A DNA stretch of 64,000 nt from Thermogutta terrifontis (GTDB lineage: Bacteria; Planctomycetota; Planctomycetia; Pirellulales; Thermoguttaceae). The notes beneath the pieces were generated by a model, which saw only the letters and a list, made by a program, of their open reading frames with translations, did not search any database and was not told the origin of the DNA. Numbering within the stretch: position 1 is the stretch's first letter; each line of letters starts with the position of its first letter. A program made the translations under genes and the position numbers. The stretch spans positions 1,240,001-1,304,000 of the forward strand of contig NZ_CP018477.1 of NCBI RefSeq assembly GCF_002277955.1, in the 5' to 3' direction. Shown here in pieces: positions 26,168 to 42,540 of this stretch.

Positions 26168-26306
26168 GATCGTGTCCCTCCCGTCGTGTTGTGCTGAGAA
26201 CGCGCTCCAAACCCACAAGGAAATCTGCCACCGTCAGTGTATCGAGCGGAATTTCGCCGTCAATCGCCGGGCGTGGGGCAGAATTAGCGTAGATTTTCCC
26301 AAAGGG

Positions 26307-26864: not shown

Positions 26865-28391
26865 TCAGGGCGTATCACTTCGCCGGGGTGCCTTCATGGC
26901 GATCTCCTTGACAAGCTCCTCGACTTCCCGTGGATTGAGGTAAAGATTGACCAGCCGGCGGGTTTCTTCGAACATTTTGTCGATCTGCTTTTGCCCCACC
27001 GGATCGGGACAAAGCAGTCGCTGTTGTTGCTGCGTCAACTCGCTGGAAAAGATTTCTCTGGATTTGAGCTGCAAAAGCTGGTCTCGCAATCGGATGGCCT
27101 GGTCCCAGTCTCCGTTGGCAATGCGGGCACGGAGGCGCGCGATGAGCACACTCCGCAAGGTGACGAGATCCACCAGTTGGTCCTGGACGCTCATGAGGTA
27201 TCCCTCGGCCAGAAGCCGGGGATCATCGTCAGGAAGGGCGAGTTCAGTGAACTCATTTGATCCATCCACCAGGGGCACTTTGGCAAGGACCCGGCGGCCG
27301 TGTCTGACCCAGAGGAGTTTCCATCCTGGTGGGGCCTGGGCGGGTACTTCAACCTGGCCGGCAAAATCTGTGCGACCCAGGACTTGAGGCGAGCCCTCGC
27401 CGCCGGGCTGAGCCAGAACTTCGTAACCCACCAGCGGGTTTTGCGGTGCCTGACGATTCTTGAGCGAGATAGTCACTGGACGTACCTGGGGTGTCACCGC
27501 CCAGGCCAGAAGCTGCACCCTCCCGCGGCGGCGGGCGCTGAGGGGATTTTTCAGGCCGGAAATAACCTGGCAACTTACGCTTCCGTCTTCGGCAGGGGGA
27601 CCTTCCGGCGATTGCAAGATGGTCCACGGGAGGGGAACCACCGCCCGAGCATTTCCGTCGCGATCTTCATACCGCGCGAGTGTAAGAAACAGCCGGCCGG
27701 GCAACGTGGGACGTTCCGCCATCAAAAGACTTCCCTGGAGATCCAGGCGGACAGCCTGTTGTTCCACCAGGCGGATCCGTGCCACCGGAACGAGAGCCTG
27801 GCGTACTGACTCTGCCGCGGCCTCCGGCACGTCGGACCAGGTTGGAACGGTTTTTTCCACAAGCGGGCCCAGGCGTTCGACCCTCACATCCCAATCCCGC
27901 GCCAGAATGTGCCAACCGAGCCCGCTTCTCCTCACCGCAACAACCGCCACTTTGTCGCGAAGGGCCAGCTTTCGCCAGGATGTCGGCGGATCAAAATTCA
28001 GATCTCGGCGGAGTGCGGCGCGGAGAATTGCCCGGTCTTGAAAAGAAGGTGGTGCCACCGAGACACGCCAAGCGGGACCCTGTTCGCTGGCGAGCCTCTC
28101 AGCAAGTTGGTCGCAGAACTCATGCTCCAGGTCATTGGAAGTATCGAACTCTGGAGGGAGCAGGCAGATCACCTCCAGCCGGCACGGTACCAGCGTGAAA
28201 AAGCTCTGGCCGGAAACCCTTTGAAAAGCACCCAGCCAAATAAGAACCGTTGCGCCAAGAAGTATTTCCCACGGCAGATGTGTTTTGCCGGTCGATCGCC
28301 GCCTCATCGTCCTTCGTGTCAGCATGGGAAGATGGAACTTCATTCTTCGCCGCATTGCAACCGATCTTGGCTTCGGCACATGTTTCTCCAT
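26865..28391 (-). CDS. Membrane-anchored protein of unknown function, last gene of the ExbB/ExbD run
   Basis: About 508 residues. An Arg-rich N-terminus precedes one transmembrane helix (about residues 41-56), then a large external domain. An Asp/Gly-rich middle has strand repeats (about 140-350), and a helical C-terminus (about 400-505) has 'RLRARIANGDWDQAIRLRDQLLQL', a TPR-like helix pair. No known family is recognised. The start is uncertain: the frame runs back to 28664 across the end of the gene upstream, and Met codons at 28391, 28355, 28343 or 28307 all give sensible starts. Its place after the TPR/solute-binding gene on the same strand suggests a shared function with that run. Confidence 0.6.
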   Translation of the reverse strand: MEKHVPKPRSVAMRRRMKFHLPMLTRRTMRRRSTGKTHLPWEILLGATVLIWLGAFQRVSGQSFFTLVPCRLEVICLLPPEFDTSNDLEHEFCDQLAERLASEQGPAWRVSVAPPSFQDRAILRAALRRDLNFDPPTSWRKLALRDKVAVVAVRRSGLGWHILARDWDVRVERLGPLVEKTVPTWSDVPEAAAESVRQALVPVARIRLVEQQAVRLDLQGSLLMAERPTLPGRLFLTLARYEDRDGNARAVVPLPWTILQSPEGPPAEDGSVSCQVISGLKNPLSARRRGRVQLLAWAVTPQVRPVTISLKNRQAPQNPLVGYEVLAQPGGEGSPQVLGRTDFAGQVEVPAQAPPGWKLLWVRHGRRVLAKVPLVDGSNEFTELALPDDDPRLLAEGYLMSVQDQLVDLVTLRSVLIARLRARIANGDWDQAIRLRDQLLQLKSREIFSSELTQQQQRLLCPDPVGQKQIDKMFEETRRLVNLYLNPREVEELVKEIAMKAPRRSDTP

Positions 28392-28563
28392 CGCCCGCTG
28401 CCCAGTTACCAAACTGCTCCGGATTGCGCGAGACGTGATGGGCTTCTGTAAAAAAGCGTCGGTGCAAAGATATTGGCCAACCCGGCGGCAAATTGCCTGC
28501 CCATTGAGGGACCTCCTCACTCTCCGGGACACAACTTGTCTTGGTTGTGCGTCGGCCATCAAA

Positions 28564-31017
28564 CTATTTTGCGGTGAACTGCCAGGTTTCGACATTCTGG
28601 TAAAGGGAGACGCACGGCTCGTCCAGTCCTCTGATTCCGGAACGGTATGCGTAAAAATCCACAAGTTGCCACAGCGGCAGGACCGTTAGATCGTCATACA
28701 CCCAGCGATGAAGCTCGCGGAGCCGCTGTCCCAGTGTGGGCCAGTCTGCGGAACTACCGAGCCCTGCAAGGACGAGCTCCACCTGGGGTGAAAGAAACTG
28801 TCGCTCGGTGATCAGGTTGGCGATCAACCGGAGGAGATCGATTTCCGGCTCCCATATGGCGGCCTCCACATAGAGGAAATCGTAATCTGGCGGTGGGGGC
28901 CGATCGGGCGACACTTCCACCAATTTCACCGTCCATCCAATTAACCGCCACTGCTCCTGGATCTGTCGGCAGGCTTCCCGAGCGATTTCGTGGGGGGGAT
29001 GGACGACTACCACTTCCCGAGATTCCAGCGGTGTTAGCCCCCGCTGTTTCGCCGCTTCCTGAGCCTGACGGAAGGCGATCTCGCTGAGGGCCAGGGCAAG
29101 GGACGGTTGATAGTCGCGGGGTTTGATCTGCGCGTCATAGGCATAGCCGAGCGGGTCGCCGAAAGACATGCCCGCCGGGAAAGGACCGCTGATGACCCGA
29201 CTTCCCGGCTGAGTTTTGCCTCCCAGCAACGATTGCAGGATGCGTTCCCGATCGATGGCGTACAGCATGGCGCGGCGAAAATCACGGTTGCCGGGCAACG
29301 GTTTGGCGAGGTTCGGAACGAGCATGTGGACAAGCGGTGTCCGGTACGGCCGCACCGTGACGTCGCGGGCTTCGGCGAGCAGAGGTAATTCCCATGGATT
29401 GACGCGATCCACGATGTCGATTTCTCCGCCACGCAGGGCGTTCAAAGCGTCCCGGCATCGGGGAAAGGCAATCTCCTCAATCTCGGCTGGACCACCGGAA
29501 ATCGAGTTGCCTTGGTTTGAAGCGGCCGCCCCGTCGGTCCTGCGAAGGAAAACCCACCGCGATGAGGAAGATTCTTCTGTGGAAAGTACAAACGGCCCGA
29601 TGTCGGGCTTGTGATCATTGCCGGAAGCCAGAATAACCGCGGGCACCGGCACGCACTGTAAGAGTGACTCAGGTTTAAGCGGCGCAAATCGCAGGTTGAC
29701 GGTCACCTCCTCGGGCGAGGAAACCCGGATACCCGCTGCGACTTCCGCCCACGGTGGGAAGTATGCCTCGTGATGCCGGTCTGCCCGATTGGCCAGTTGC
29801 TGGGCGAGATCGTATGCGGTGTAGGATCGGCCATTCGCAAATTGGGGGCGGTCCGGCCGAAGCCGAAGCCTCAGCGTCTGCTTTTCAGTATCGAGCTGCC
29901 ATATCAGGAATGCGGATTGATACTCGCCGCCCTCCGGACCGGGGCCCGTGTATTCTACCAGGGCTTTGCGGATGAGTCGCCCACAGCGTCGGCTTCCCCA
30001 GTCGATTAAAGAAGTGGGATCAGCCTGGGCACCTGGTTGGGTGATCCCCACCTGGAATCGGGGATATGCCTTCCGAACCTCCGCGATCAATTGATCAAGG
30101 CCTGGTTGCTGGGGCCAAACCTGCCTGAGCTTGCGGACCAGGCGGTCTGCCTGGCGGGGATTGCCCGCGGAGAGCGCCTGGTTTACCTGTTTTTCCAGTT
30201 CGGCCGCCTCGGTTTGCCACTGCTGTCGCCACTTTTGAACGGCCGGGTGTTGAGGAAGAAGTTTCGATAACGTCTCCACCGCCCCCCGCGCCGCGGCATA
30301 CTCCCCTTTTTGCCAGCGCTGTTGAACCAGCGCATCGACTGCCTGTCCGATCAAATTGGAGAGTTCCGGATGATTGGGGTTAATTTCGCTCAGACGGCAG
30401 AGATCGGCAAAAGCGCGTTCCGATTCTCCCTGAGCGAGGGCCGCCCGTGCTTCCTCAATCAAAAACAATTGCTCGACCTCAGCAAATCCACTGACGTTGG
30501 GATAATGGGTGGCCACGTAGTCCAGATAGTCGTAAGCCTCATCAAAACGTTTTTCCTGGATCAGTTTGCTCGCCTGCTCCAGCAAGAGCTGTTCGAACAG
30601 CTTGAGCTGCACGATTGCCTGCCACGGCACGCGATAACGTTCTCCTGGACGATCGAAAAGTTCTATCTCCAGATACCCACTTCGCGGCAGCGGTTGCGGA
30701 ACTTTGCGATCTGGCAAGGGAACAGGCGACAGCTTGAGGACGGCATTATTGTTGGCCGCGTTGAGATACAGCAGGTCGAACGGCGGTTGCTCGTATAACG
30801 GGGTGGTCGTATCGATGCTGGGTTCCGATAGTTGTTTTGACACCTGCGGCGTGAGCGGAGATGGTTGCTGCGGCGTTTCGGCAAAGGCACCAATTCCCAA
30901 GACACAAATGGCCGCGAGGCAGGCGGCACCGCGTATCCAGCAGCCCCATGGAAGCCGCTGCGTTTCGTTGGTATGCCGCTTCCGCAGCTCGAATTGTTCT
31001 TTTCCAAGATGATCCAT
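28564..31017 (-). CDS. TPR plus oligopeptide-binding-like (SBP family 5) protein
   Basis: An 817-residue protein with an N-terminal hydrophobic signal or anchor (about residues 25-46). TPR-like helices (about 120-310) include 'KRFDEAYDYLDYV' and similar repeats. The second half (about 345-800) resembles the family 5 extracellular solute-binding proteins of dipeptide ABC transporters, for example 'GRSYTAYDLAQQL' and 'DFRRAMLYAIDRERI'. No permease or ABC ATPase genes are adjacent, so it probably does not serve a classical transporter. I chose ATG 31017; GTG 31077 overlapping the previous stop is possible. It belongs to the minus-strand run with ExbB/ExbD. Confidence 0.8.
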   Translation of the reverse strand: MDHLGKEQFELRKRHTNETQRLPWGCWIRGAACLAAICVLGIGAFAETPQQPSPLTPQVSKQLSEPSIDTTTPLYEQPPFDLLYLNAANNNAVLKLSPVPLPDRKVPQPLPRSGYLEIELFDRPGERYRVPWQAIVQLKLFEQLLLEQASKLIQEKRFDEAYDYLDYVATHYPNVSGFAEVEQLFLIEEARAALAQGESERAFADLCRLSEINPNHPELSNLIGQAVDALVQQRWQKGEYAAARGAVETLSKLLPQHPAVQKWRQQWQTEAAELEKQVNQALSAGNPRQADRLVRKLRQVWPQQPGLDQLIAEVRKAYPRFQVGITQPGAQADPTSLIDWGSRRCGRLIRKALVEYTGPGPEGGEYQSAFLIWQLDTEKQTLRLRLRPDRPQFANGRSYTAYDLAQQLANRADRHHEAYFPPWAEVAAGIRVSSPEEVTVNLRFAPLKPESLLQCVPVPAVILASGNDHKPDIGPFVLSTEESSSSRWVFLRRTDGAAASNQGNSISGGPAEIEEIAFPRCRDALNALRGGEIDIVDRVNPWELPLLAEARDVTVRPYRTPLVHMLVPNLAKPLPGNRDFRRAMLYAIDRERILQSLLGGKTQPGSRVISGPFPAGMSFGDPLGYAYDAQIKPRDYQPSLALALSEIAFRQAQEAAKQRGLTPLESREVVVVHPPHEIAREACRQIQEQWRLIGWTVKLVEVSPDRPPPPDYDFLYVEAAIWEPEIDLLRLIANLITERQFLSPQVELVLAGLGSSADWPTLGQRLRELHRWVYDDLTVLPLWQLVDFYAYRSGIRGLDEPCVSLYQNVETWQFTAK

Positions 31018-31045
31018 TTCCTGAGACGCCAAGTCCGTCACATTC

Positions 31046-34000
31046 TTAAGGAGTGGCGGAAAGGCTTGCGCTATCACTGGTTCGACTCAGCCGGAGCGAA
31101 TCCAAAGAGACACGCAACCAGCAGCCCTCCAGCGTGCCCAACCAAAGCTCATTCCCCAGCAGTGTGCCACCTGCCGAAAGAGGGGTTTCCAGCCGCGCCG
31201 TGTCAGTGATCTTTTCGGTGGTCAGATCGATGGTAATAAGCTCTCCAGACGATGTGGCCACAAGTAACGATTGACCGCGGCGGATCGGGAGTCCTACCGG
31301 GCTGCGATTTCCCATCGGCACCTTCCTCACGCTGTTGGCATCGTTCAACCAGAAAAAGGTGCCGTCGGCTGTCATGAAACACACGAGGTTATCGCCGGTT
31401 ACTGGCCCCCAGATGCACTCGCCGGGAAGAGGAATCGTTGCCGTGGACTGAAGGGTCTCCGCGTCGAAGAACACCAGATTGTTTTCGGCATCGCTGATTA
31501 CGACAAGCTTATCGAGTTGCGCCAGTGGAGAGACGAATGGTACGCGATGGGATTGCTGGCGTTCTAAACGGAAGTGATCCGGGGGATTCCCCTCCAGCCG
31601 GAGCTTGACGAGATGCCCTCGGCTATCCGCTGCAATAAGGGTTTGGTCTTTCAAGGCGACGGCGCCTGAATAGTGGGTCGTCTCTCCCGGAACTGTAGGC
31701 CCCAGATAGGCAACCGGTTGCGGCGTTTCCTGTTCGCAGGAGAGCCAGACGAGGCTTCCATCCTCGAGTCCGACTGTGCACCCATTTGCCAATGGAACGA
31801 GCGGACCAGCCACCGCCCTTGCGAATCGCACAAGTTGCTGCTTAGGGGGATCGGATCGCGCATCAATCTTGAGCAAAGCAGTCGTTCCCGGGTAGGTCAT
31901 CACCCACAGGCCGGGGACAGGAGAACAGGTGAGCGGCTCCACTTTCGGCGAAGGAACCGTCGGCATCTCAGTGGTTGCGAGGGCTTCCACCACCTGCGGG
32001 AATTGTTTTTCTCCGAGATTCCACCCAGCCACGTGTCCGCTCCAGGTCACTGCCACGAGCGACTGAAGAGAAGCGGATGGGGCCAGGCTGACTCCCGGAT
32101 CACTGAGATGGACCTCCCAGTAACTTCGTCCATCGGCGGAATTGACGGCCGTGACAAAAATCCCGGGACGGTTTGGCCGACGATACGCATAGAAGACCGT
32201 GGAGTCCATAATCACTGGCGGCGCGATGGCCAGGGTGTTTTCGCAGGCCACCCACCGAGGGATGAGTCGTGCGGCCGATGCCTGAAGCTCAAATTGAGCC
32301 AGGGAGGTGTCGGCTGTGAACAGGGATTCGCCCGTCAGGACAACCCACGGTGCCACCCACTGATCCGATCGCGGGAGCCCTCCCGGCGACTTTCCTTCCG
32401 CAAGAAGGGCCAGGGGCTTCTGACGCTCCCGCGCCCGTAATTGATAGACCTGAACGTGGCCGCCGTGGGTGATCAAACTCAGTCGGGATTCCTGAACTTG
32501 CAGAGGTGTGAGGAGTTTTCCCGGCAGTTCGATGTCCTGAATCGATGCTTCGTCCGCCTGGCTGCCCGGAGATTCCGCGTTTTTCTGGGAAAGTGCCAGG
32601 ACGCGGAGTTGCGCCGTTTGTCCGTTCTTCTGCATTGGCAGAACGAGATACTCGCCGACAATCACCGGCGGGACGCAGAGCTGGCCCGGTTCGTGTCCCA
32701 GATACCACACGTCCACACATGTTCCTTTATCAGGATCGATGACGAAGAGATTGGAATGCTCTCCGACGAGATACCATCGGGGCGGACTCTCCGTTAGCAC
32801 CGGAAGGAACGCCGGCTTTTGGGGAAGAATCAGTTCTCGAAGAATTTTTTCCTCCTGGAAATCGACCAGATAGATACGCCTCGAGCTTCCCAAAATCGTT
32901 CCCACGTGCCCAGTTGCAAGGGCGCACTCGGCTGGGGGTTCGGGGAGCCGAATTTCCCGCAGGGAATTTCCTGTGCTCAACTCCAAACAGGCAACGCATC
33001 TGTTGATGCGGTCCGGAAGTGCGACGGCCGGATGATTATCAATCTCAACGATGCACGGCATTTGAAAGGACCCGGCGGCACCGACTGATTCACCGATGCG
33101 GCGCTGCCACAGGAGCTTTCCCGTACGCGCCTCGAGGGCGAAAGCCGATGACTGGTCGGAGACCACTACAACCCGATCTTCCGGCAATGGGGCTTCCCCC
33201 TTTTTGAGGAAAGCAAACACCGCCGTTTGCTCTACCTGAGGTCGGTTGGGCGGGTTTGGAGCAGGGGACGGCTCAACAAACTTCACCCGGTCCTTTTCCG
33301 CCTCCGCAACGCGCCGCATGACGCGAATGAGTTCGGCGTTGTTTTTGGCCTGGGGATAGTTCTGAAGAAATTTCCTTCTTACCTCATAAACCTGATCAAG
33401 ATCCCCTTTTGCCAGCAACTCTTTCAGACGGCCGATTGTTTGAGCCAATTCTTCCGTTTCGGAAATGCGACGCCGTGCCAGCTCGAGCGTGGTGGCGATT
33501 TCGTCGAGTTTCGCCACCGGGCGTTTGTCCTGCGGGATGAATCGCCGACAGTAGGCAAGGGCCTCCTGAGCTTTCTCCACAAGGGCGGGATCTGCTTTTT
33601 GAAGGGCCGCCCGCGCTAGATTCTCAGCAAGCGGCGGTAGAATCGCCGTGAGTTCTGCGTCTGCCTCGGCGTGGAAATCGGGAAGGGGGCTGATTTGGTC
33701 GAGGACCTCCTTAATCGCAGAAAGTGCCGCCGCACTCTCCTGAGTTTGCACGGCTTGCCGGATTTGCGCTAGTCCCCGCCGCACTTTCACCGGTCCGGCC
33801 TGGGGATGTCGGGGAAAATTATCCAGAAACTGCGTGTACTTATGGATGGCTTGCGTGTACGAGCCGGCATGGTAGTCGGCATCTGCTTCGGCCAGCAAAT
33901 CGTCCCCACTTCGCCTGTTGAGAGACCAGAGAAGCACCACCCCGGCGAACAGCAAAAGAAGGATTCCCCCACCACCAAACAGGATGAGCGGCGATTCCCA

Positions 34001-34555
34001 TGGCGTTTTGCGACGGGGCGAAGTCCAGGTTGTTACCGGTGGGACAGTCGCGGGTGTTGGACTGGTGGGAGGCAAGAGTTCGCTCAGCAAATCCTCGGTA
34101 GGGCTGGATGGTGGCGGCTCGAAGTCGCGCGACGGGGCTGGCGAGGTCGTATCAGCAGATTCCAGGGGGACAGCCCGGGGAGGTGGCGAAGGCGCCGCCG
34201 GTGTTTTCCGCGGAGGTTCTTCTTCGAGCGGCAACAAATCCACGGGTTCGTCTGCCAGCCCAATGTTCTCTTCATCCGGGACGGGCGTGCCTTCCAGGGG
34301 ACGAAGGACCAGCGGTTCGATTTTCTGTCGCGGATTCCTGGCCGCCCACTCCGCCTCAATCTGGGTCATCAGCCGCTGGGCCAGAAGCCTTGACAGATAT
34401 CCCTGTTCCACAAGAATACGGGCGGCCATCGCCGCGTTGATGGGTTTGGCCGTCTTCAGCGAGCGTGCCACGTGCGCCCGAAGCTCCGCCAGGACTTCGG
34501 GCGGGACGAGATCTTTTTCTTCGAGGACTTTGAAAAGTGCTTCCGCGGGAATCAT
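31046..34555 (-). CDS. Membrane-anchored TPR/beta-propeller protein
   Basis: A 1169-residue protein. The N-terminal 70 residues are helical and resemble the short N-terminal segment ('GYLSRLLAQRLM') found before the membrane anchor in several planctomycete proteins. A Pro/Ser-rich linker (about 90-185), one transmembrane helix (about 190-212), TPR-like repeats (about 215-430) and a large PQQ/WD-like beta-propeller (about 450-1160) follow. Blade motifs such as 'SAFALEARTGKLLWQRR' and 'SLREIRLPE' recur. The propeller is presumably periplasmic. It ends 29 bases before the start of the TPR/solute-binding gene, so the two are likely co-transcribed. Confidence 0.82.
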   Translation of the reverse strand: MIPAEALFKVLEEKDLVPPEVLAELRAHVARSLKTAKPINAAMAARILVEQGYLSRLLAQRLMTQIEAEWAARNPRQKIEPLVLRPLEGTPVPDEENIGLADEPVDLLPLEEEPPRKTPAAPSPPPRAVPLESADTTSPAPSRDFEPPPSSPTEDLLSELLPPTSPTPATVPPVTTWTSPRRKTPWESPLILFGGGGILLLLFAGVVLLWSLNRRSGDDLLAEADADYHAGSYTQAIHKYTQFLDNFPRHPQAGPVKVRRGLAQIRQAVQTQESAAALSAIKEVLDQISPLPDFHAEADAELTAILPPLAENLARAALQKADPALVEKAQEALAYCRRFIPQDKRPVAKLDEIATTLELARRRISETEELAQTIGRLKELLAKGDLDQVYEVRRKFLQNYPQAKNNAELIRVMRRVAEAEKDRVKFVEPSPAPNPPNRPQVEQTAVFAFLKKGEAPLPEDRVVVVSDQSSAFALEARTGKLLWQRRIGESVGAAGSFQMPCIVEIDNHPAVALPDRINRCVACLELSTGNSLREIRLPEPPAECALATGHVGTILGSSRRIYLVDFQEEKILRELILPQKPAFLPVLTESPPRWYLVGEHSNLFVIDPDKGTCVDVWYLGHEPGQLCVPPVIVGEYLVLPMQKNGQTAQLRVLALSQKNAESPGSQADEASIQDIELPGKLLTPLQVQESRLSLITHGGHVQVYQLRARERQKPLALLAEGKSPGGLPRSDQWVAPWVVLTGESLFTADTSLAQFELQASAARLIPRWVACENTLAIAPPVIMDSTVFYAYRRPNRPGIFVTAVNSADGRSYWEVHLSDPGVSLAPSASLQSLVAVTWSGHVAGWNLGEKQFPQVVEALATTEMPTVPSPKVEPLTCSPVPGLWVMTYPGTTALLKIDARSDPPKQQLVRFARAVAGPLVPLANGCTVGLEDGSLVWLSCEQETPQPVAYLGPTVPGETTHYSGAVALKDQTLIAADSRGHLVKLRLEGNPPDHFRLERQQSHRVPFVSPLAQLDKLVVISDAENNLVFFDAETLQSTATIPLPGECIWGPVTGDNLVCFMTADGTFFWLNDANSVRKVPMGNRSPVGLPIRRGQSLLVATSSGELITIDLTTEKITDTARLETPLSAGGTLLGNELWLGTLEGCWLRVSLDSLRLSRTSDSASLSATP

Positions 34556-34666
34556 GATCGTTCAGTCCGGCGTCTTTCCTCCCGTGTGCTTTCATCGTTA
34601 TTCATTAAGCCGCCATAAAACCATTTCCAGCACGCCCGGTTAGAGCTTCGTTTTTTAGGGTGTTTT

Positions 34667-35287
34667 TTAAAATGCTGTATCTTCTACAGTGGCCAGTCGA
34701 ATGCGTTCCATCCCCACCGCGTTCCCCGCATCCAGTGCCTTGACAACCGTTTCATGACGGCATTGCGGGTCTGCCAAAACTAACAGGCCTGTACGCCCGG
34801 GAACACCCTGTCCCAGTTGGCCCAGCTTCGCCTCACGCAACTTGTTGAGGAGCTCTTGGTCGCTGGGGGCATCCTCTCCGTCCACCGTGATGTTATTATC
34901 GCGGTCGATTCGCACGATGACGAAATCGCTTTCGTTTTCCAATTCTTCCAGCGTTTGGGCCTGTGCCGTCTTTTCCTGATTGTCGGAAGGCGGCATTTCG
35001 AGAGCTTTTTGCAGACTGAATGCCGCCGTCATCATAAAGAATATCAGCAACTGAAACACGACGTCCACCATCGGCGTCATGTCCATGACCTCTTCGGGCA
35101 TTTCCGGCCGGGTGAAGCTGATGGGTACGTTCTGCGCTTCTTCGACGGTCTCCACAGACATATCTGTTGAAGTTGAAGCATCAAACGCAACGACGTGTCC
35201 ACATGCCGGGCAGGGACCGGATGTGCCGCGAAGATTGTCGGCCACTGTTATCACCGTTCCACAGTGTGGACAGCTTACCCGAAGCAT
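34667..35287 (-). CDS. ExbD/TolR-type protein with N-terminal zinc ribbon
   Basis: A 206-residue fusion of an MJ0042-like zinc ribbon (Cys 6, 9, 26, 29) to an ExbD/TolR proton-channel subunit. The transmembrane helix (about 69-92) carries Asp 75 in MTPMVDVVF, the residue that takes part in proton conduction in ExbD. The periplasmic domain (about 115-200) contains the 'VIVRIDRDNNITVDGE' strand pair. ExbD normally has a short cytoplasmic tail, so the ribbon is an unusual cytoplasmic addition. The AGGAG site before ATG 35287 fixes the start. It follows a second ExbD and an ExbB gene. Confidence 0.9.
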   Translation of the reverse strand: MLRVSCPHCGTVITVADNLRGTSGPCPACGHVVAFDASTSTDMSVETVEEAQNVPISFTRPEMPEEVMDMTPMVDVVFQLLIFFMMTAAFSLQKALEMPPSDNQEKTAQAQTLEELENESDFVIVRIDRDNNITVDGEDAPSDQELLNKLREAKLGQLGQGVPGRTGLLVLADPQCRHETVVKALDAGNAVGMERIRLATVEDTAF

Positions 35288-35368
35288 GCCGACTCCTGAG
35301 TTTTTTGACTTCGCGCGCGATGATCGTTAGCGGTTCAGTATGAAGCGGCGCAAAGCATGCCCATTGCT

Positions 35369-35857
35369 TCAGTCTTTTTCCAGAACGCCAATATAAATGC
35401 GGACGCCTTGCACCTCACCGATATCTTCGAGAATTCTCGCCACGTCTTTATGCCTGAGCTTCCGTTCCGCCTTGACGATCACATCCCGCTTTCCGCTGAG
35501 CACTCCTTCGCGGACCGCTGCCACAATTTGTTCTCGTTGTTGCTGGGGGTCATCGGGCAAAGGTGTGCCAACCTTTCCGTCAGCGAGGTACACAGCCGGG
35601 GACGCATTATCACCCTGGTAGGCCACTGTGATGATGGTCGCCTGGGCGGGACTGGCGCCCTTGCCATGTCGGGCAGGGGGAAGTTCCAGCGCACGCCCCA
35701 CATCCATGGATGACGCCACCAGAAAGAAAATCAGCAGCAGGAACGTCACGTCAATCATCGGTGTGATATCAAAATCCACCGATTCCTGGCGAGGCCGGCG
35801 GAAGACGATGGCTTCAGATTCCTCGCCCACGACACGTGTCCAGACGTCGGTGCTCAT
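35369..35857 (-). CDS. ExbD/TolR-type proton channel subunit
   Basis: A 162-residue protein. The transmembrane helix (about 31-53) has Asp 36 in DITPMIDVTF, the proton-path residue, followed by the periplasmic domain (about 75-160). In TonB, Tol and related machines ExbD/TolR couples with ExbB/TolQ to harness the proton motive force across the inner membrane. I chose ATG 35857; a TTG at 35884 would add nine residues. It lies between the ExbB gene and the zinc-ribbon ExbD, so the channel has two different ExbD-type genes. Confidence 0.9.
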   Translation of the reverse strand: MSTDVWTRVVGEESEAIVFRRPRQESVDFDITPMIDVTFLLLIFFLVASSMDVGRALELPPARHGKGASPAQATIITVAYQGDNASPAVYLADGKVGTPLPDDPQQQREQIVAAVREGVLSGKRDVIVKAERKLRHKDVARILEDIGEVQGVRIYIGVLEKD

Positions 35858-35923
35858 GGCCGTTTCCAGGCGTATTTGACTCAATCCGCAATTCTTTGAC
35901 GTTCGACATATTTCCCGCTCGGC

Positions 35924-36643
35924 CTATTCAGTGCGGAAGGTTCGCTCAGCTGCGGTCCGACCTGCCGGAGCAGGCGCCGGAGGGGGCGTCGCGGCACTTT
36001 CGGTGCGGACTCCCGCGCTTTTAAGCACATCGAGGAGGCGATTGAGCCCCGAGCTAACGAAGTCTTCCAGCTTGCGAATCTGGATGCTCGCAGATGCCGC
36101 GCAAAGGACCAGCGGGATAGCGATCGCGAGCCCGATGGCGGTGGTGACGAGGGCCAGACTGATGTCGTCAGCGAGTTTGGTGGGGTCCACCTTTTCACCA
36201 CCCGAAAGTTTGGCGAAGGCCCCCATCATTCCCAGCACGGTTCCAAACAGCCCCAGCATGGGAGCGCTCTTGATGACGGTGTAGATCCAGGAGAGACGGT
36301 ATTCGAGATCGGCAAGGACGTCCCGCTGGAAGCGCTCCACGAGGAGTGTACGGAGCCGGGAAAGGCCGAGTCGTCGGTTGAGCAGGGCCAGCCGGACCAA
36401 TTGCGGCAAAGCGCGACTGTCCTCCGAACACATGTCCACCGCGGCTGTGAAATCTCCCCGTGTGATGAGGTCTTCCACCCGGAGAAGGAATTCCTCCTGC
36501 TGCTGTTCCGTCACGAACCGAAAGCGCCGAATTCGGCGGACAAGCATCACCATGCAGAACGCACCCCAAAGAGCCACGAGGGCAAGGGCCGCGTAGTCCG
36601 CAGTTCCTAGGTAAGTCGTGATTGTGCTCAGATCAAATCTCAT
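35924..36643 (-). CDS. ExbB/TolQ/MotA-type proton channel protein
   Basis: A 239-residue inner-membrane protein. The N-terminal helix (about 14-35) is followed by a cytoplasmic segment and the conserved channel helices (about 130-200) with 'SAPMLGLFGTVLGMMGAF' and 'ALVTTAIGLAIAIP', hallmark motifs of the MotA/TolQ/ExbB family. The C-terminal 35 residues are Ala/Pro-rich. I chose ATG 36643 rather than the upstream in-frame start at 36688. It is 66 bases upstream of the ExbD gene and should be co-transcribed. Together they would drive an energised envelope process. Confidence 0.93.
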   Translation of the reverse strand: MRFDLSTITTYLGTADYAALALVALWGAFCMVMLVRRIRRFRFVTEQQQEEFLLRVEDLITRGDFTAAVDMCSEDSRALPQLVRLALLNRRLGLSRLRTLLVERFQRDVLADLEYRLSWIYTVIKSAPMLGLFGTVLGMMGAFAKLSGGEKVDPTKLADDISLALVTTAIGLAIAIPLVLCAASASIQIRKLEDFVSSGLNRLLDVLKSAGVRTESAATPPPAPAPAGRTAAERTFRTE

Positions 36644-36806
36644 GGGGCTATAGTCTTCCTGGAAACTCACCAAGATGCAGGAACGCAACTCGCTTCCTCG
36701 GCGAACCGCGGAATCGTTTACCCGCGCGTTCTCTCGCCGAGTTCAGAGCCAATCCTCAATAATAACGGGCGACCACGTTTGTGCCGACGATCAGTATGCA
36801 CAATTT

Positions 36807-37724
36807 TTATCGATATTGTTGGGAAATAACATAGAACGCAAAACCGTTTCCCTCACGTCGGATCCCAAATCGCGTGGAACTCACCCGATCGGCGCGGCTG
36901 CCAGCATGGGCGCGTTCCAGGGCGGCGAGCTGGGCTTCGACTTCTGGCGGCAGAAATTTGAGAATGATCCGGTTGTCCGCGTCGATTCCCGCCTTGGCCA
37001 GCAACTGTTTGTCAGCCTCCTGCAGATCGCCACGCTGCCAGGTCAGATAAAAGCGTTTTTCGGCGTCGGCCGGGCCGACCCTGACTTTGGGCTGGGGTTG
37101 CGAAAACCCCGATGCGTACTGAACTTTGTTTCCCGGAAGGAGCACACCCAGTTCAATTTTGAAGTAGTCGAGCTGACGAGCATACGTATCCAGGGTGTTG
37201 CCTTTGTCGAAGAAGATCTCCCACCGACGCGGGACACCGCTTCCACCAGTGCCGCCTGCGCCGCTGCGGAGGGGTGAGCCTTTCGGGCCGCCACGCTCCG
37301 TCGATTCCGGATCGGCAACGAGTGGGTTTTCCAGGTCAGCCAGTCGGGCCGCCACCACGTCCGCCACCGAGGCCAGGGCATCGCGAAGTTCCGGCTCTTC
37401 CAGCTCCTCTTCCTGACCAGGGGGTTCCGTGTTGATTTCCATCTCCGGTCCAAGGGGCAGTCCCCCCTCGCCGATCGGCTGGTAACTGACGGGAACCACC
37501 ACCTGAGAAATGTGCGAGCGTCCTGTCAACCAGATGATGAAGAGCCCCAGCACGCAGATCCCCAGCAGAATCAGGCAGGAAATAATGGCGCTGACCGCGC
37601 GATCGTAAGCCGACACGCGGAGAGCATAATCGGGATCGTTGAAGACCGGTGCGGTGCGATCCGTCATTTTTCGTGTATCAGCAGCGCGTCCGCGTTCTGA
37701 CTGTTGGGCGAAAAACTGTTCCAC
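36807..37724 (-). CDS. Single-pass membrane protein next to ExbB, TonB-like layout
   Basis: A 305-residue protein. A cytoplasmic N-terminus precedes one transmembrane helix (about 44-67), an acidic Glu/Pro-rich stretch (about 100-125), a Gly-rich linker and a C-terminal domain (about 165-305) with 'WEIFFDKGNTLDTYARQLDYF'. The order of anchor, extended linker and compact C-terminus recalls TonB/TolA, but no TonB family motif is visible, so any such role is inference. The start GTG 37724 has no clear ribosome site; ATG 37667 is an alternative. It is 163 bases upstream of ExbB on the same strand. Confidence 0.68.
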   Translation of the reverse strand: MEQFFAQQSERGRAADTRKMTDRTAPVFNDPDYALRVSAYDRAVSAIISCLILLGICVLGLFIIWLTGRSHISQVVVPVSYQPIGEGGLPLGPEMEINTEPPGQEEELEEPELRDALASVADVVAARLADLENPLVADPESTERGGPKGSPLRSGAGGTGGSGVPRRWEIFFDKGNTLDTYARQLDYFKIELGVLLPGNKVQYASGFSQPQPKVRVGPADAEKRFYLTWQRGDLQEADKQLLAKAGIDADNRIILKFLPPEVEAQLAALERAHAGSRADRVSSTRFGIRREGNGFAFYVISQQYR

Positions 37725-37846
37725 GCTCGGTCAAGAGAAACGGTTTCCCGGGAAAAGGGCTTGCTCTCCCTCGCGTTTCCCTTTGACGATATCGCATGTG
37801 CTTCCATCTGGCCATTCCAGCGTGACGCACAGCTTGGAGGCCCCCA

Positions 37847-39526
37847 TCAGTCAAAACTGGCAGTTGGGTCGATTTGCCGGTACCAGGCTTTCCATTTTGC
37901 CACAGCCGCCTGCCGTTCTGTGTCGGTAAAATTGGGCCGGAGGCCGCCTTCGAACCGCCGACTCAGGCGCCGGAGGGCCCTATCGGCAGCCAGCACGACC
38001 TCCGGGTTGGGATCGTTGAGCGCGAAAATGAGGACAGGGGCGTTGCGGACATCTCCGCCTCGCCCCAGCGCTGTGAGGGCGGCGATTTTCGCTTCTGGAC
38101 GATCGCTGGCGGCAAGCCGCCGCAGTTGCTCTTCCTGATCGGACACAAGCAGTCGGACCTGCTGAGGAGGCAAGGTCTCCAGCGTTTCAATGACGCCCAG
38201 AACCTGCGATTTCTCACCGGAGTTCAAGATGGCGATCAGGTCTTCCGGCGTGGTCCGCAGCGGCAGGGCCACCACCTGGCCGTTTCTGACAATAGCGTTG
38301 TCGGTTTCCTTGGGGAGTCCGCGGGCACCGACCAGGACGCCGGGTCCAAAGTCCCGCACCCGTTCGATGCTCTGTTTCGTGGATCGCACGAGAAAAAGGA
38401 TGGCGAACGCCGTGTCGGGTACAGCGCCGCACTGGTGATTCCAGCTTCCGTCACTGTTTTGAGTCTTAAGAATGAAGTCGGCGCCGGCCTCGTACCAACC
38501 CGGGATGGTGCTTCCCGGCCCGTCAACAAGTTCACGAAAGGTGAAATACCGCTCCAGGGTGTAAAGGTAGTAGTAGTTGTACATTCCCGACGGAATTTTG
38601 AAGTTGTTGTGGATGTACGCATTGCCGCGCTGGAGACAGGCCCGAAGGGCTGACGGATCGATCGACAATCGGAGCTGGCCGCTGTCTCGGGCGTTGTCAA
38701 TACGTTGCAGGGCAGGGGGGAGGTCGGTCTCGGGGAGGGAAGTTCGCTGTCTGTCGAGCAGCGATGCCAGCACGTACGCGCTCCCGACTCCGGCAACGGC
38801 CATACCGATGCGGACGCTGTTCTGAGGAATGAGTTGGGGACCCGGGGCCACCTGCCCCTGGTACCCGTAGCCGCCGCTGGGATCCTGGGTGCGCAGAAGC
38901 CACAGCGCGACGCGATTGAGCGGCTCGGAGGGGACGGAAAAACCGGCCTGGATGGCCTCCCATAAACCAAGCACAGCATACTGTGTTTGGGATGTATCCC
39001 CGGTAGCGGCATGCGTGTGTCCCGGGGGATAACCCCAACCGCCGTGCGGCTTCTGCCGATACAGAAGATAATTGATGATGGCCTGGATTTCTCGGCGGTA
39101 ATTCTGTGGATCGTAGGTGCACAGGAAGATAATGGAGAGACCAGTACTATAGATGTCCCAGCTTCCAATGTCAAAATCCTGCGGCTGGCCGCTCTGCGGA
39201 ATCCGCTGGCAGATTTCTCGCGCTGCTTCGAGGATCACGGGATGATTGGCCGGGCGATGGGCCTTGATCATGGCCAGGCCGTTGAGGGCCCAGGCCCCGA
39301 TCTGCATTCCGCTGTAATGGGAATCAGGCTTTTCCAGAAAAGCCAGCCCGCGTTCCACAGCTTGCCGCACAACAGGGCTGTCCGGGGAAAGCTGCCCCAT
39401 CGCCGGTTGCCCAGCAGTCAGGCACAGGACGACAAGAATCACGCTGACCGGCACAGAGCCCCCGGCCTGGACCGGGAACGGGAAATCCAGCGAGCGGCCG
39501 TCAGCCAGAACACCGTTCGTCGGCAC
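37847..39526 (-). CDS. Secreted prenyltransferase/squalene-cyclase-fold protein with HEAT-like tail
   Basis: A 559-residue protein with a signal peptide (about 23-45, after a basic/Gly-rich n-region). An alpha-alpha barrel (about 50-380) carries QW-like repeats such as 'HGGWGYPPG', 'DPSGGYGYQG' and 'NSDGSWNHQCG' as in terpene cyclases and protein prenyltransferases. The DxDD catalytic motif of squalene-hopene cyclases is not found, and the protein looks secreted, so it is probably a non-enzymatic member common in planctomycetes. Residues about 400-540 form HEAT-like helices. The AAGGA site upstream supports GTG 39526. Confidence 0.8.
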   Translation of the reverse strand: MPTNGVLADGRSLDFPFPVQAGGSVPVSVILVVLCLTAGQPAMGQLSPDSPVVRQAVERGLAFLEKPDSHYSGMQIGAWALNGLAMIKAHRPANHPVILEAAREICQRIPQSGQPQDFDIGSWDIYSTGLSIIFLCTYDPQNYRREIQAIINYLLYRQKPHGGWGYPPGHTHAATGDTSQTQYAVLGLWEAIQAGFSVPSEPLNRVALWLLRTQDPSGGYGYQGQVAPGPQLIPQNSVRIGMAVAGVGSAYVLASLLDRQRTSLPETDLPPALQRIDNARDSGQLRLSIDPSALRACLQRGNAYIHNNFKIPSGMYNYYYLYTLERYFTFRELVDGPGSTIPGWYEAGADFILKTQNSDGSWNHQCGAVPDTAFAILFLVRSTKQSIERVRDFGPGVLVGARGLPKETDNAIVRNGQVVALPLRTTPEDLIAILNSGEKSQVLGVIETLETLPPQQVRLLVSDQEEQLRRLAASDRPEAKIAALTALGRGGDVRNAPVLIFALNDPNPEVVLAADRALRRLSRRFEGGLRPNFTDTERQAAVAKWKAWYRQIDPTASFD

Positions 39527-39682
39527 GGGCGAAGGTCCTTATCGAGCACCGGGTTTATCAACAAGCCACGAAATTGGGCGCAGTTCGATCGCCACAATTT
39601 GAATGCTACCGGTCGCTGGAGACCGTGTCAACGAAAGGGCTGCATCTTGGGGGTTGGGCTTCGGCTTATTCACAGATGCCAC

Positions 39683-42379
39683 TCACGGAGTGGCTTTGCG
39701 CTCGAGCAGGATGGTCCACGCCAAGGCCCCCTGCCGGTCACTGCTGGGTGTGTCGAAGCGTGTCGGCTCCAACCTGAGAATGTGGAAATCGCGGGAAAAA
39801 TCTTCGCGGATTTCTTCTTCGCGAACCCGGGGCGGCCCGCCCGTCCCCGGTTCATTGGCGTTGCCCGCCAGAATAAGCACACGGCTGCCGGGCTTGGTCA
39901 CACGGCGTAAAGTGGCGATATACTCGGCGGCGGCCGTGCGGCGGACGCCGTGGTAGCAGCCCCGATCATAGACATAATCAAACTTGGGCAGATACGAGGG
40001 AGGATTGAGCACGTCGCCCAGCAACCATCGGACGCTCACGCCGGCCTTTTTGGCTTTGTCGCGAGCGATGGCGAGAGCGGTGGGGGCCAGATCGATCGCC
40101 GTCACATCAAAACCCTGCTCCGCCAGATAGATCGCGTTTGTGCCCGTGCCGCATCCGAGTTCGAGGGCCCGGCCCGGCTGCAACCATTTTTCGGCGATCG
40201 CCTGACGCAGATCGCTAGAAGGCCGACCCGTATCCCACGCTGGTCTGTTCCCCGCGTGATACGCACGGTCCCAACGCTCGATGAGGGCAAGCCCCTCCGC
40301 GGTGAACGGCAAGACGCCCGCAGCCAACGGCCAGGGACGATCAGTGGAAATGATTGGGTCCCCCTCGTAGGCGATAGTGGCCTGAGTCCAGTCCGGGAGC
40401 GGTAGATCTAGCTGGACGGTGGCTCCCTCCGCCAGGCGGACGCTCAGTGAAATCATCTCCGCAGTGGCTGAAAGGATTTTGAGCCGGTCCTTCAGATGCG
40501 GGGGATGGTCCGCCTTCCCCACTGCCATGACCCAGAGGTTCCGCTGGACGGATTGGCTGGGTAAGGAAACGGTAACGCGGACGCTTCGCCGCTTCTGCTG
40601 CCCGGCCACCTCCTCACTGACGGCGATGGCTTCCGCGGGGAGAGACGGCGGCCAAATCCGCAGCATTTCCAGCGACGATCGGGCCCCAGCGTAACGGATC
40701 ATGTCTCCATCAATCGCGGGAGCCTGGGGAAAGTGGAAAAGCACGGACACAGGGGTTGCAGGAGTTGGAGGAACCACATAGTCATCCAGGACCAGCACGT
40801 CAGGTTTGAGGAAGAGCAGCCGCCGGATGAATGTCGGTCGGGGGTCGATTCGCCGGCCTTTCTCGAAGCGACCATAAGCGTTCGAGGCATCGCCTACCAC
40901 CATCGTGAAACGCGGGTTCTCCTGGAAGGCCAAAATGTCGCCGGTGTCGAACGGTCCTCCCGGCACCGTGGGACCGACAAACTGTCGCGGATCATTTCCC
41001 AGCACGCGCTGGCCACCACCGATCAAAAGCGTGTTGTGAAATTCTGCGGCCTTTGCCCCGTACTGCCCCGCGTCCACAAGCAGTTCCTCCCCGGCGGAGA
41101 GCACAAAACTGTTTTGATCGGCGTGCTGGTGGCCGGCGAAGCTATCACCACACACAAACACCCCCCAAATGGCTTCGGGGCCCCAGTCGCTGCGGAAGCT
41201 GGCCCAGCCGACACCCGGGAAAAGACAGCCCGTGGGAAGGCTCTCCCGCTGCACTTCGCGGATCGAGGCATCAAACCAGAGAATCTTGGGCCAGATGTGG
41301 AAGGGATACCGCAAGGGAGTATGGTTGGCCACCCATTGGGCAAAAGGATCCCGATACCGCTGGGCGAGCAGCCAGAGGTAGGCTGTTTCCTGGTGACCCC
41401 ATCGGGCAGGGGTTTCGATGTCGGCGATCGGGGCGAAAGAATTGTCGAAAGGCCGAGTGCAGTACAGCAGCCATCGACCGGCGCCGCCCAGCCCGGGACA
41501 CATTGCGAACAGATCTTCGCCGGTGGCTGTCCGCCAGGCCTCCATTTGATGGGCCAGTTCGTACGCGAAGAAACTGAAATAACTCATGCTTTCGTGCCAG
41601 CCACCCTCGCCTTTCTGACCGGGCTTGCCGCCGCCGAGTTGGTTTACAGTGGGAATGAAGTGCTGCTTGAGCATCTGGTCACATTCCGCCAACAGCTCGG
41701 TCGCCCATGGGGATGCCTCTTCGTGCGCCAGAGCTAGGGCTGCATAGACCAGTGGACCGTATTCCAGATACACGTGATTGTTGTAATCGGAATGGCGGTA
41801 CTGCTTTTTCATTACCTCAACCACCTCCTGCATTCGCCGGATCAGGCGGTCTTTCTCCTTCGGGGACAGCAGCGGATGGAGCCAGTCGTAGGTTATTGCC
41901 AGAGCTTTGAGCATCCGAAGCCGCGTCCACGAGTCCCCCTCGGCGGTGCAAAGATAGTCGGTAAATCTGTCAATCCGTGGCCGAAGTGCGGGGTCCTGCT
42001 TTTCCATGAGAAACACCACGAGGGTGGCGATGGCCTGATCCGGCGTGACCCAAAGATTGGGGTTGAAACTTTGGGAATAGGCAAAACGTCGCAGGTCTTC
42101 GTATTCTTTGGCGGGAAAGCCGTCCTGTTCTCGGCGAAAAGGAAGTCGTCGCCAATCCTCGGGAGTCAGCCAGATTCGTGGGTGTTCGCGACGAACTTTT
42201 TCGGCAATCGGAGGAGCACTCTCCGAGGCCACAAGGGTGGGACGCCAAAGCAGCATCCCCGAAGCAGTAATCGCCAGAGTGATCAACAGAAAGACTTTTT
42301 GCCGCAGGGCGTTTTCGGTGAAAACAGCGGCTCGTGTCGATTCGCGTCTGCAGGTTTTCACGGGGGCATCCTCCCTCAT
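39683..42379 (-). CDS. Heparinase II/III-like protein fused to a SAM methyltransferase
   Basis: An 898-residue two-part protein. A long basic N-terminus and hydrophobic segment (about 27-46) suggest export or a signal anchor. An alpha-helical toroid (about 50-340) and a heparinase II/III-like beta domain (about 370-620) follow, with GHQHADQNSF and FHNTLLIGG, features of polysaccharide lyases acting on uronic-acid polymers. The last 200 residues are a class I methyltransferase with the SAM-binding ELGCGTGTN (about 738-746) and 'VTAIDLAPTALAIA'. A normal lyase would end before it. Location is puzzling because SAM is cytoplasmic. I chose ATG 42379; the frame extends to 42517 but adds sequence unlike a signal region. 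An upstream TATAAT lies at 42408-42413. Confidence 0.82.
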   Translation of the reverse strand: MREDAPVKTCRRESTRAAVFTENALRQKVFLLITLAITASGMLLWRPTLVASESAPPIAEKVRREHPRIWLTPEDWRRLPFRREQDGFPAKEYEDLRRFAYSQSFNPNLWVTPDQAIATLVVFLMEKQDPALRPRIDRFTDYLCTAEGDSWTRLRMLKALAITYDWLHPLLSPKEKDRLIRRMQEVVEVMKKQYRHSDYNNHVYLEYGPLVYAALALAHEEASPWATELLAECDQMLKQHFIPTVNQLGGGKPGQKGEGGWHESMSYFSFFAYELAHQMEAWRTATGEDLFAMCPGLGGAGRWLLYCTRPFDNSFAPIADIETPARWGHQETAYLWLLAQRYRDPFAQWVANHTPLRYPFHIWPKILWFDASIREVQRESLPTGCLFPGVGWASFRSDWGPEAIWGVFVCGDSFAGHQHADQNSFVLSAGEELLVDAGQYGAKAAEFHNTLLIGGGQRVLGNDPRQFVGPTVPGGPFDTGDILAFQENPRFTMVVGDASNAYGRFEKGRRIDPRPTFIRRLLFLKPDVLVLDDYVVPPTPATPVSVLFHFPQAPAIDGDMIRYAGARSSLEMLRIWPPSLPAEAIAVSEEVAGQQKRRSVRVTVSLPSQSVQRNLWVMAVGKADHPPHLKDRLKILSATAEMISLSVRLAEGATVQLDLPLPDWTQATIAYEGDPIISTDRPWPLAAGVLPFTAEGLALIERWDRAYHAGNRPAWDTGRPSSDLRQAIAEKWLQPGRALELGCGTGTNAIYLAEQGFDVTAIDLAPTALAIARDKAKKAGVSVRWLLGDVLNPPSYLPKFDYVYDRGCYHGVRRTAAAEYIATLRRVTKPGSRVLILAGNANEPGTGGPPRVREEEIREDFSRDFHILRLEPTRFDTPSSDRQGALAWTILLERKATP

Positions 42380-42407
42380 CCGAGATTTGACATTTTCGTC
42401 CGGGAGT

Positions 42408-42413
42408 ATTATA
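42408..42413 (-). promoter_or_regulatory. Candidate -10 box of the heparinase-methyltransferase gene
   Basis: A perfect TATAAT on the minus strand, 29 bases before the ATG at 42379. No convincing -35 hexamer is seen at 16-18 bases upstream. Confidence 0.35.
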
Positions 42414-42510
42414 CCGTGGGGGCTGCGCGCGGAAGTGGGCCGAGCGTCTTTGTGTGTCGCCCGATTTGGGAAAACGGCCGGGTGTGCGAGGCCGATCATC
42501 TGGGCTGACC

Positions 42511-42540
42511 TTGCCAATGGGGCAAAAACTCGGCTAACAT
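42511..42540 (+). promoter_or_regulatory. Candidate sigma-70 promoter for hpt
   Basis: TTGCCA, 18 bases, TAACAT, about 100 bases before the hpt ATG at 42642. Confidence 0.4.

Follow-up and report, generated by a model that had tools for sequence, protein, structure and literature searches.

An eight-gene run of Thermogutta terrifontis as a candidate Tol/Agl-like, proton-driven envelope machine of the Planctomycetia

We analyzed a 64,000-nucleotide stretch of the genome of the planctomycete Thermogutta terrifontis (called the window here; positions 1,240,001–1,304,000 of the single 4,810,751-base contig) and describe a run of eight open reading frames (ORFs) in it, all on the minus strand and lying at window positions 26865–39526. 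In the order of transcription they encode CYC, TonBl, ExbB, ExbD, ZnExbD, PROP, SBP and MP. We think it fairly likely that the eight genes form one proton-driven trans-envelope machine, working like Tol-Pal and like AglRQS-Glt of Myxococcus. Our best reading is that this Tol/Agl-like machine is specific to the class Planctomycetia. The claim that the genes belong to one system appears well supported by comparative genomics, and we infer that the task of the machine would lie at the outer membrane. An earlier note on the same DNA, made from the letters alone, had listed eight genes on one strand in this order, and both the ORFs and the Pfam matches agree with it.

Results and Discussion

The gene order, which the earlier note had proposed to look for in other planctomycete genomes and whose confinement to this genome would have counted against its proposal, is conserved there. 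When named genomes were scanned with the TonBl alignment, 191 relatives were obtained; 80 loci were kept, and their titles are those of planctomycete or plain "bacterium" metagenome-assembled genomes (MAGs). The nearest named match of TonBl is from a Thermogutta MAG and is 93% identical. The complete set in the window's order is found in 21 of the 80 loci, and the remaining loci are cut by contig ends or are without CYC, the motor or more. Loci with the full run include L156 and L158, from MAGs of Gimesia or Rubripirellula. Counted over frames of at least 60 codons and over loci whose contig reaches the tested gene, the partners occur around TonBl as follows: upstream, CYC in 43/63; behind it, ExbB in 62/74, ExbD in 59/70, ZnExbD in 49/62, PROP in 50/58, SBP in 41/50 and MP in 36/45. 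The loci scored as missing ExbB include two with a possible loss in ORF calling (L090 and L091) and one with a changed gene order (L124); the order strings take CYC matches of 60 bits or more. Homologues of SBP were found in 38 of 60 genomes (that of T. terrifontis and 59 relatives), in one of these, G021, only at 4.5e-5. The order recurs in the 20 regions fetched around the SBP matches, with variants: L047 is without motor genes, TonBl has moved in L056, CYC was not seen in several regions, and some contigs are short. A chance run was ruled out, as the order is repeated in dozens of loci. Among 392 genomes drawn from the phylum, a homologue search identified 41 that match, 40 of the same class and one outside it at 9e-5. 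Within the class, TonBl matches are present in 263 of 297 genomes. By hand count, approximately 200 of these matches are at 1e-40 or better and approximately 60 are weaker than 1e-25, nearly all of the weaker ones in the families f118 (probably Gemmatales) and f121.

The motor is encoded by the three genes that follow TonBl. ExbB (35924–36688; likely ATG at 36643) carries the MotA_ExbB domain (PF01618, 7e-24), and both ExbD (35369–35884; likely ATG at 35857) and ZnExbD (34667–35287) carry the ExbD domain (PF02472, 4e-16 and 1e-21, respectively). The Pfam families fit the ExbB/ExbD motor of the earlier note; by profile score, the motor resembles TolQ/TolR more closely than ExbB/ExbD. The best NCBIfam match of ExbB is tolQ (4e-17, versus 1e-13 for exbB2 and 4e-11 for exbB), and ExbD and ZnExbD score best against tolR (2e-11 and 9e-10), above the ExbD models, with all of these tolQ and tolR matches below the curated equivalog cut-offs. 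Against the PDB profiles, ExbB gave 3e-18 for TolQ and 3e-13 for ExbB. The intramembrane aspartate of ExbD is conserved, and D45 shows no exception in an alignment of 20 rows, made up of the window protein and 19 of the 60 listed. The motor Asp motif was found in 64/65 ExbD and 56/58 ZnExbD proteins of the named loci and in 16/17 of each in the first set, counted over ZnExbD scores above 100 and ExbD scores above 60. The zinc ribbon of ZnExbD, predicted to be cytoplasmic, lies ahead of the ExbD domain (Zn_ribbon_3, 7e-6). C6, C9, C26, C29 and D75 are invariant in the window protein and 23 of 45 rows; because the 45 rows were pre-selected for profile coverage, the invariant cysteines overstate the frequency of the ribbon. 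The CxxC-CxxC pattern occurs in 42/58 orthologues in the named loci and 13/17 in the first set (40 and 12 with a stricter script). The name zinc-ribbon ExbD is correct for the window protein, and part of the family, judged by this pattern, is without the ribbon.

The motor and the periplasmic parts occur together even where the motor genes are relocated. Four genomes of the family f22 (probably Isosphaerales) have CYC-TonBl-PROP-SBP-MP contiguous without motor genes, and the same four carry a cognate ExbB-ExbD pair elsewhere, followed by ZnExbD in three of them. The cognate triplet is detached in G054, G687, G688 and G689 (the genomes of L118, L138 and L146 are among them), and a cognate motor was located elsewhere in 8 of the 9 examined genomes whose locus is motorless. 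G037 has two cognate ExbBs and two TonBl genes. In the ExbB tree, linked and detached motors form one clade (25/25 rows, 100/99) against 20 paralogues. Nearest to this clade (98/94) are the ExbBs of two f118 genomes and one f121 genome; one of the three, in L199, has a TonBl-like gene next to it. This 45-row tree drops five rows, three for their long branches (L006, L004 and L179) and two duplicates (L167 and L182); in an earlier 50-row tree, the very long row L006 was placed among the cognates, with 2 changes for 26 rows. Both trees are a chosen sample with one ExbB per locus. The label "cognate" in the 45-row tree stands for a profile score above 150, and it marks the same rows as the by-locus list minus a duplicate. 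SBP is strong in 37 of the 60 genomes. TonBl is found in 35 of these 37 (not in G004 and G026) and cognate ExbB in 34 (not in G004, G025 and G055); among the other 23 genomes, ExbB is found in none and TonBl only weakly in G021. SBP, TonBl and cognate ExbB are jointly present or absent in all 60 genomes bar 5, in counts that ignore kinship.

Further motor loci were noted in the T. terrifontis genome. L215:3348-11933 (approximately 4.673–4.682 Mb) encodes a TPR protein, ExbB, ExbD and then a 1219-residue protein with a squalene-cyclase-like segment (sub-threshold, 4.6e-5); cyclase-like toroids and ExbB/ExbD motors may meet a second time at this locus. Two loci combine ExbB with paired ExbDs: L214:2486-8857, with TPR-type proteins upstream, and L213:7575-12219, with a long protein of no clear family downstream. 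In R. baltica, exbB (RB12053) and exbD (RB12055) are described as salt-induced in excerpts of one study (PMC2754498); these two genes could not be tied to the cluster.

TonBl (36807–37724; likely ATG at 37667, chosen from the start candidates) is the putative transducer. Its model (m7b6060110158) and an 80-row alignment (A4) describe a single-pass protein with a helix at residues 39–70, a disordered linker of approximately 90 residues rich in Gly, Glu and Pro, and a predicted periplasmic C-terminal domain of approximately 140 residues, modeled with confidence at 167–304. No Pfam or NCBIfam family was matched by TonBl at E 0.1, and a sequence search of the PDB was also without a match. The C-terminal domain has no significant match in the PDB by structure either (best Foldseek E 0.11, best VIA Z 3.5); such a weak match does not imply a new fold. 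The fold-search matches listed include no TonB, TolA, vWA or OmpA fold, a result that excludes none of them, and vWA is not among the 25 of 36 Pfam families listed for the 80 TonBl rows. TonBl resembles TonB in topology only, and its alignment shows no conserved transmembrane histidine. The single-pass TonB-like protein of the earlier note is borne out to that extent.

PROP (31046–34555) is predicted from its sequence to have a cytoplasmic N-terminal helical region, one transmembrane helix, and periplasmic TPR and propeller parts. Pfam gave PQQ_2 (2e-10) and YfiO (2e-4), and among the PDB profiles the propeller matches BamB at 1e-20, with designed propellers scoring higher. SBP (28564–31077; likely ATG at 31017) is a predicted exported protein that joins TPR (sub-threshold in Pfam) to a family 5 solute-binding domain (SBP_bac_5, 3e-23). 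This domain is retained across the family, with a profile that covers most of the SBP folds, for example 4wed and 7kz8. The PQQ_2 and SBP_bac_5 matches confirm the two assignments made earlier, a propeller/TPR protein and a TPR plus family 5 binding protein.

The last gene, MP (26865–28355), had been taken for an unknown membrane protein. This was set aside on the basis of the frame start, the homology start and the model, and the best reading of MP is that it carries a signal peptide and is exported. The first part of its 1800-base frame overlaps the SBP gene; homology is conserved only past a likely start, which we place at approximately 28307–28355. The model (m47ae091d25a8) consists of a TolB-N/FlgT-like domain (residues 65–200), a second beta domain (to approximately 296), a CnaB-like domain (300–384; VIA match to 3e8v, Z 10.1) and C-terminal helices. 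Foldseek identified 8z5n_0 ("LPHT ring", 1.5e-7) and TolB (7mx5, 2.6e-6). VIA identified 6uxc (Z 9.4), TolB (7mx5, Z 8.5, 106 residues aligned, root-mean-square deviation (rmsd) 3.0) and FlgT (3w1e, Z 8.1, 125 aligned, rmsd 4.0). FlgT forms the H ring of the Vibrio flagellum. The predicted TolB-N/FlgT-like fold makes a Tol- or Agl/Glt-like machine likelier than an uptake system built around the binding protein.

CYC (37847–39526), the first gene, encodes a predicted secreted alpha-toroid with HEAT repeats (Pfam SQHop_cyclase_C, 5e-7, and HEAT_2). Squalene-hopene cyclase (1.5e-11) and, weakly, alpha-2-macroglobulin (1.7e-3) appear among the PDB profiles, both below HEAT-type designed repeats. 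DxDD is the catalytic acid motif of class II terpene cyclases. It was found neither in the window CYC nor in 21 of the 24 aligned rows, and in the three exceptions it lies beyond residue 465, within the HEAT repeats. The reading as a terpene cyclase was rejected on this absence. Of the secreted terpene-cyclase-fold protein described earlier, the squalene-cyclase-like toroid stands, and CYC is better called a toroid protein than a proven enzyme.

Ton/Tol-type motors convert proton flow into movement of a transducer. In the proposed machine, ExbB and the two different ExbD subunits would make up the inner-membrane motor, and TonBl, with its one-helix anchor and long flexible linker, would carry the force into the periplasm. 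PROP, the TPR-binding protein and MP would form a periplasmic train through putative contacts and would hand the force on to a partner located in the outer membrane or close to it, with CYC as a secreted accessory. The motor would act on the outer membrane or on its pores, much as Tol-Pal does. The binding domain would serve for docking or sensing and would not feed an ATP-binding cassette (ABC) importer.

The published excerpts on AglRQS-GltG of Myxococcus xanthus (PMC3169522) provide the precedent for one ExbB, two ExbDs and a TonB-like transducer. AglRQS-Glt and the run share one ExbB-type and two different ExbD-type subunits, a single-pass protein of TonB topology, and TPR proteins; the motor genes have a cluster of their own in the former and at times in the latter. 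Unlike AglRQS-Glt, the run has no FHA/TonB GltG, GltI or outer-membrane Glt proteins, and it has a family 5 binding domain, a BamB-like propeller, a TolB-N/FlgT-like protein and a cyclase-like toroid. The likeness to Tol-Pal is in the motor, which matches TolQ/TolR best, and in the propeller, TPR and TolB-N-like fold, all of which are present in the run. The differences are that the TolB-N-like domain (MP) and the propeller (PROP) are on separate proteins (no search for tolB was made outside the run), that there are two TolR-type subunits and no Pal in the run, and that the transducer domain is unmatched to TolA. None of the eight proteins has an OmpA/Pal match in Pfam or NCBIfam, the rest of the genome not having been searched. 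Tol-Pal is largely reduced in Planctomycetes according to a published survey. A bolder version of the proposal, which we regard as doubtful, is that the run encodes a third Ton/Tol-type machine, specific to the Planctomycetia, with a new transducer domain and split TolB halves, which replaces Tol-Pal and powers proton-dependent outer-membrane traffic in these budding cells.

The nearest published idea is a family of vWA transducers of the Planctomycetes-Verrucomicrobia-Chlamydiae (PVC) group with paired tolR genes and a TPR gene (PMC12204202). These clusters share with the run a tolQ-like gene, two different tolR-like genes, a TPR gene, and a transducer of TonB topology with a non-TonB end domain. 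The conserved set of the run is larger, with SBP, PROP and MP, and the conserved histidine reported for the vWA transducers (PMC12204202) is not conserved in TonBl. SBP retains by profile the binding domain of the oligopeptide/nickel ABC binding proteins of family 5; unlike these, it is fused to TPR, has no adjoining permease or ATPase, and is linked to a proton motor.

Several observations weigh against one Tol/Agl-like machine. The fold likeness of MP is without support in sequence searches, in which the PDB gave no match and no Pfam or NCBIfam family was found at E 0.1 except for one sub-threshold TPR match, and the TolB-N/FlgT match is moderate (VIA Z 7–9; rmsd 8.6 for 8z5n) and below the Z of 10.1 for the CnaB-like domain. 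TonB/TolA transducers have a transmembrane SHLS motif with an essential histidine, as excerpted from PMC12204202; a histidine anywhere in the TonBl helix columns 39–70 occurs in 5/80 rows, with at most 2 per column. No outer-membrane barrel, lipoprotein or Pal-like gene was identified by Pfam among the eight. CYC is not beside TonBl in 20/63 loci, PROP is not behind TonBl in 8/58, G373 has TonBl alone within 16 kb, and no cognate ExbB was found in G690 (the genome of L148). TonBl is absent from every f8 genome (ten) and every f9 genome (two) of the 297-genome class set and from both f3 genomes of the 60-genome set, so the body plan does not depend on the system. Three f118 genomes and one f121 genome have only a weak TonBl-like gene, and their best ExbB scores no higher than a paralogue; in the neighborhood of that gene, the only place searched for these parts, there is no SBP, MP or CYC, and a PROP match at 6e-11 in L197 is the one exception. 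Among the f118 loci, L199:6965-12596 has the weak TonBl-like gene flanked on one side by a gene that reads as dnaK-like from its sequence and on the other by an ExbB/ExbD pair, and L197 has it after dnaK without such a pair.

Three other explanations were weighed. The parts could be two neighboring modules only, an operon of unrelated envelope proteins into which a generic TolQR motor was inserted, as four f22 genomes and several of the Pirellulales have a run without the motor triplet and CYC is often absent. We hold this to be very improbable: the relocated motor belongs to the cognate clade and is not a random paralogue, and genomes tend to have both the motor and the periplasmic parts or neither (again in counts that ignore kinship). 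The machine could also serve surface movement or secretion in the strict sense of Agl-Glt or Nfs; its motor would then drive adhesins on the cell surface, or polymer, along the cell. One ExbB, two ExbDs, TPR proteins and a TonB-topology protein match the parts list of AglRQS-Glt, and the PVC clusters of vWA transducers with TPR, tolQ and paired tolR genes are guessed, in the excerpts of PMC12204202, to serve gliding. Pfam found neither a GltG with FHA and TonB domains nor an OmpA-like or autotransporter domain in the eight proteins; the lack of an FHA, OmpA-like or autotransporter partner speaks against this reading, which we hold to be quite improbable.

An uptake machine is unlikely, although less so than these two. 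Its motor would open an entry in the outer membrane (the crateriform structures, perhaps), and peptide or glycan fragments that reach the periplasm would be captured there by the binding protein. This reading follows the inference of the earlier note, which had a proton-driven motor power a machine built on the propeller and binding proteins. The conserved order and the co-occurrence, even with a relocated motor, speak for such a machine, and a Tol/Agl-like role is likelier for it than uptake. Excerpts of one study report periplasmic dextran uptake in 0/816 planctomycete cells treated with the uncoupler carbonyl cyanide m-chlorophenyl hydrazone (CCCP) and craters that appear to join both membranes like press studs (PMC5394234), and the binding domain of SBP is kept across the family. 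The same excerpts show dextran uptake in Gemmata obscuriglobus as well as P. limnophila; in the f118 genomes viewed (probably Gemmatales), the TonBl-like gene is only weak and no ExbB is of cognate grade (for the other parts, the search was not genome-wide). No permease adjoins the run, and there is no outer-membrane receptor in it.

The earlier note had reported no ABC genes and no TonB-dependent receptor in the run, and this holds for the eight genes and, for permease and ATPase genes, also for the two neighbors (by Pfam; ABC genes were not searched genome-wide). The single TonB-dependent receptor of the genome is distant, at 3.448 Mb. A plain TonB system was ruled out, as the run has no receptor and the likeness of TonBl is one of topology only. 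An ABC importer at this locus was likewise ruled out: there are no ABC genes alongside, and the one complete dipeptide-type ABC operon examined (845–852 kb) has its own SBP. The note had named an ABC transporter elsewhere that pairs with SBP as a finding against its proposal; none was found beside the run. Judged from the starts of the neighboring frames, an Opp-type permease at 3.380 Mb (L216:3399-4316) has no evident binding-protein or ATPase gene beside it, and a second family 5 binding protein at 1.608 Mb (L234:5844-7973) has no permease or ATPase evident nearby. Owing to this orphan permease and the second permease-less SBP, a distant ABC pairing keeps some likelihood.

The run is flanked downstream by a propeller protein (24941–26218) and upstream by a heparinase-methyltransferase protein (39683–42517), as assigned by Pfam. 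Neither was seen in the 20 related loci searched, the sole exception being one weak match of 24941–26218 located inside a PROP gene, and both were rejected as parts of the unit. The frame at 39683–42517 is an odd combination, a single open frame that fuses a heparinase II/III-like protein to a S-adenosylmethionine (SAM) methyltransferase. In the gap before CYC, a sigma-70-like promoter match (39603–39631, 10/12 to the consensus, minus strand) is a pattern only, one of 11 found versus 3.8 expected.

Conclusion

Planctomycetes have an outer membrane, and to our knowledge no machine that links their two membranes has been identified. We found no published description of the eight-gene set in the titles and abstract openings among the matches listed, a search with subscription journals mostly outside its scope. 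The main text of the P. limnophila essential-gene paper (PMC10632474) names no ExbD, TolQ or TonB, and word searches in PMC12283558 and PMC6461901 were without a match. Planctomycetes are without FtsZ, according to excerpts of PMC8871954. What would be new here is an envelope machine that has a Tol/Exb motor of known kind and novel parts in the periplasm. The run is a concrete eight-gene candidate for the machine that links the planctomycete membranes, and with TonBl the Ton/Tol group would gain a transducer whose C-terminal domain is unmatched. The run also adds to the evidence from the vWA transducers that motors of the TolQR type drive envelope machines beyond Ton, Tol, Agl and Mot.

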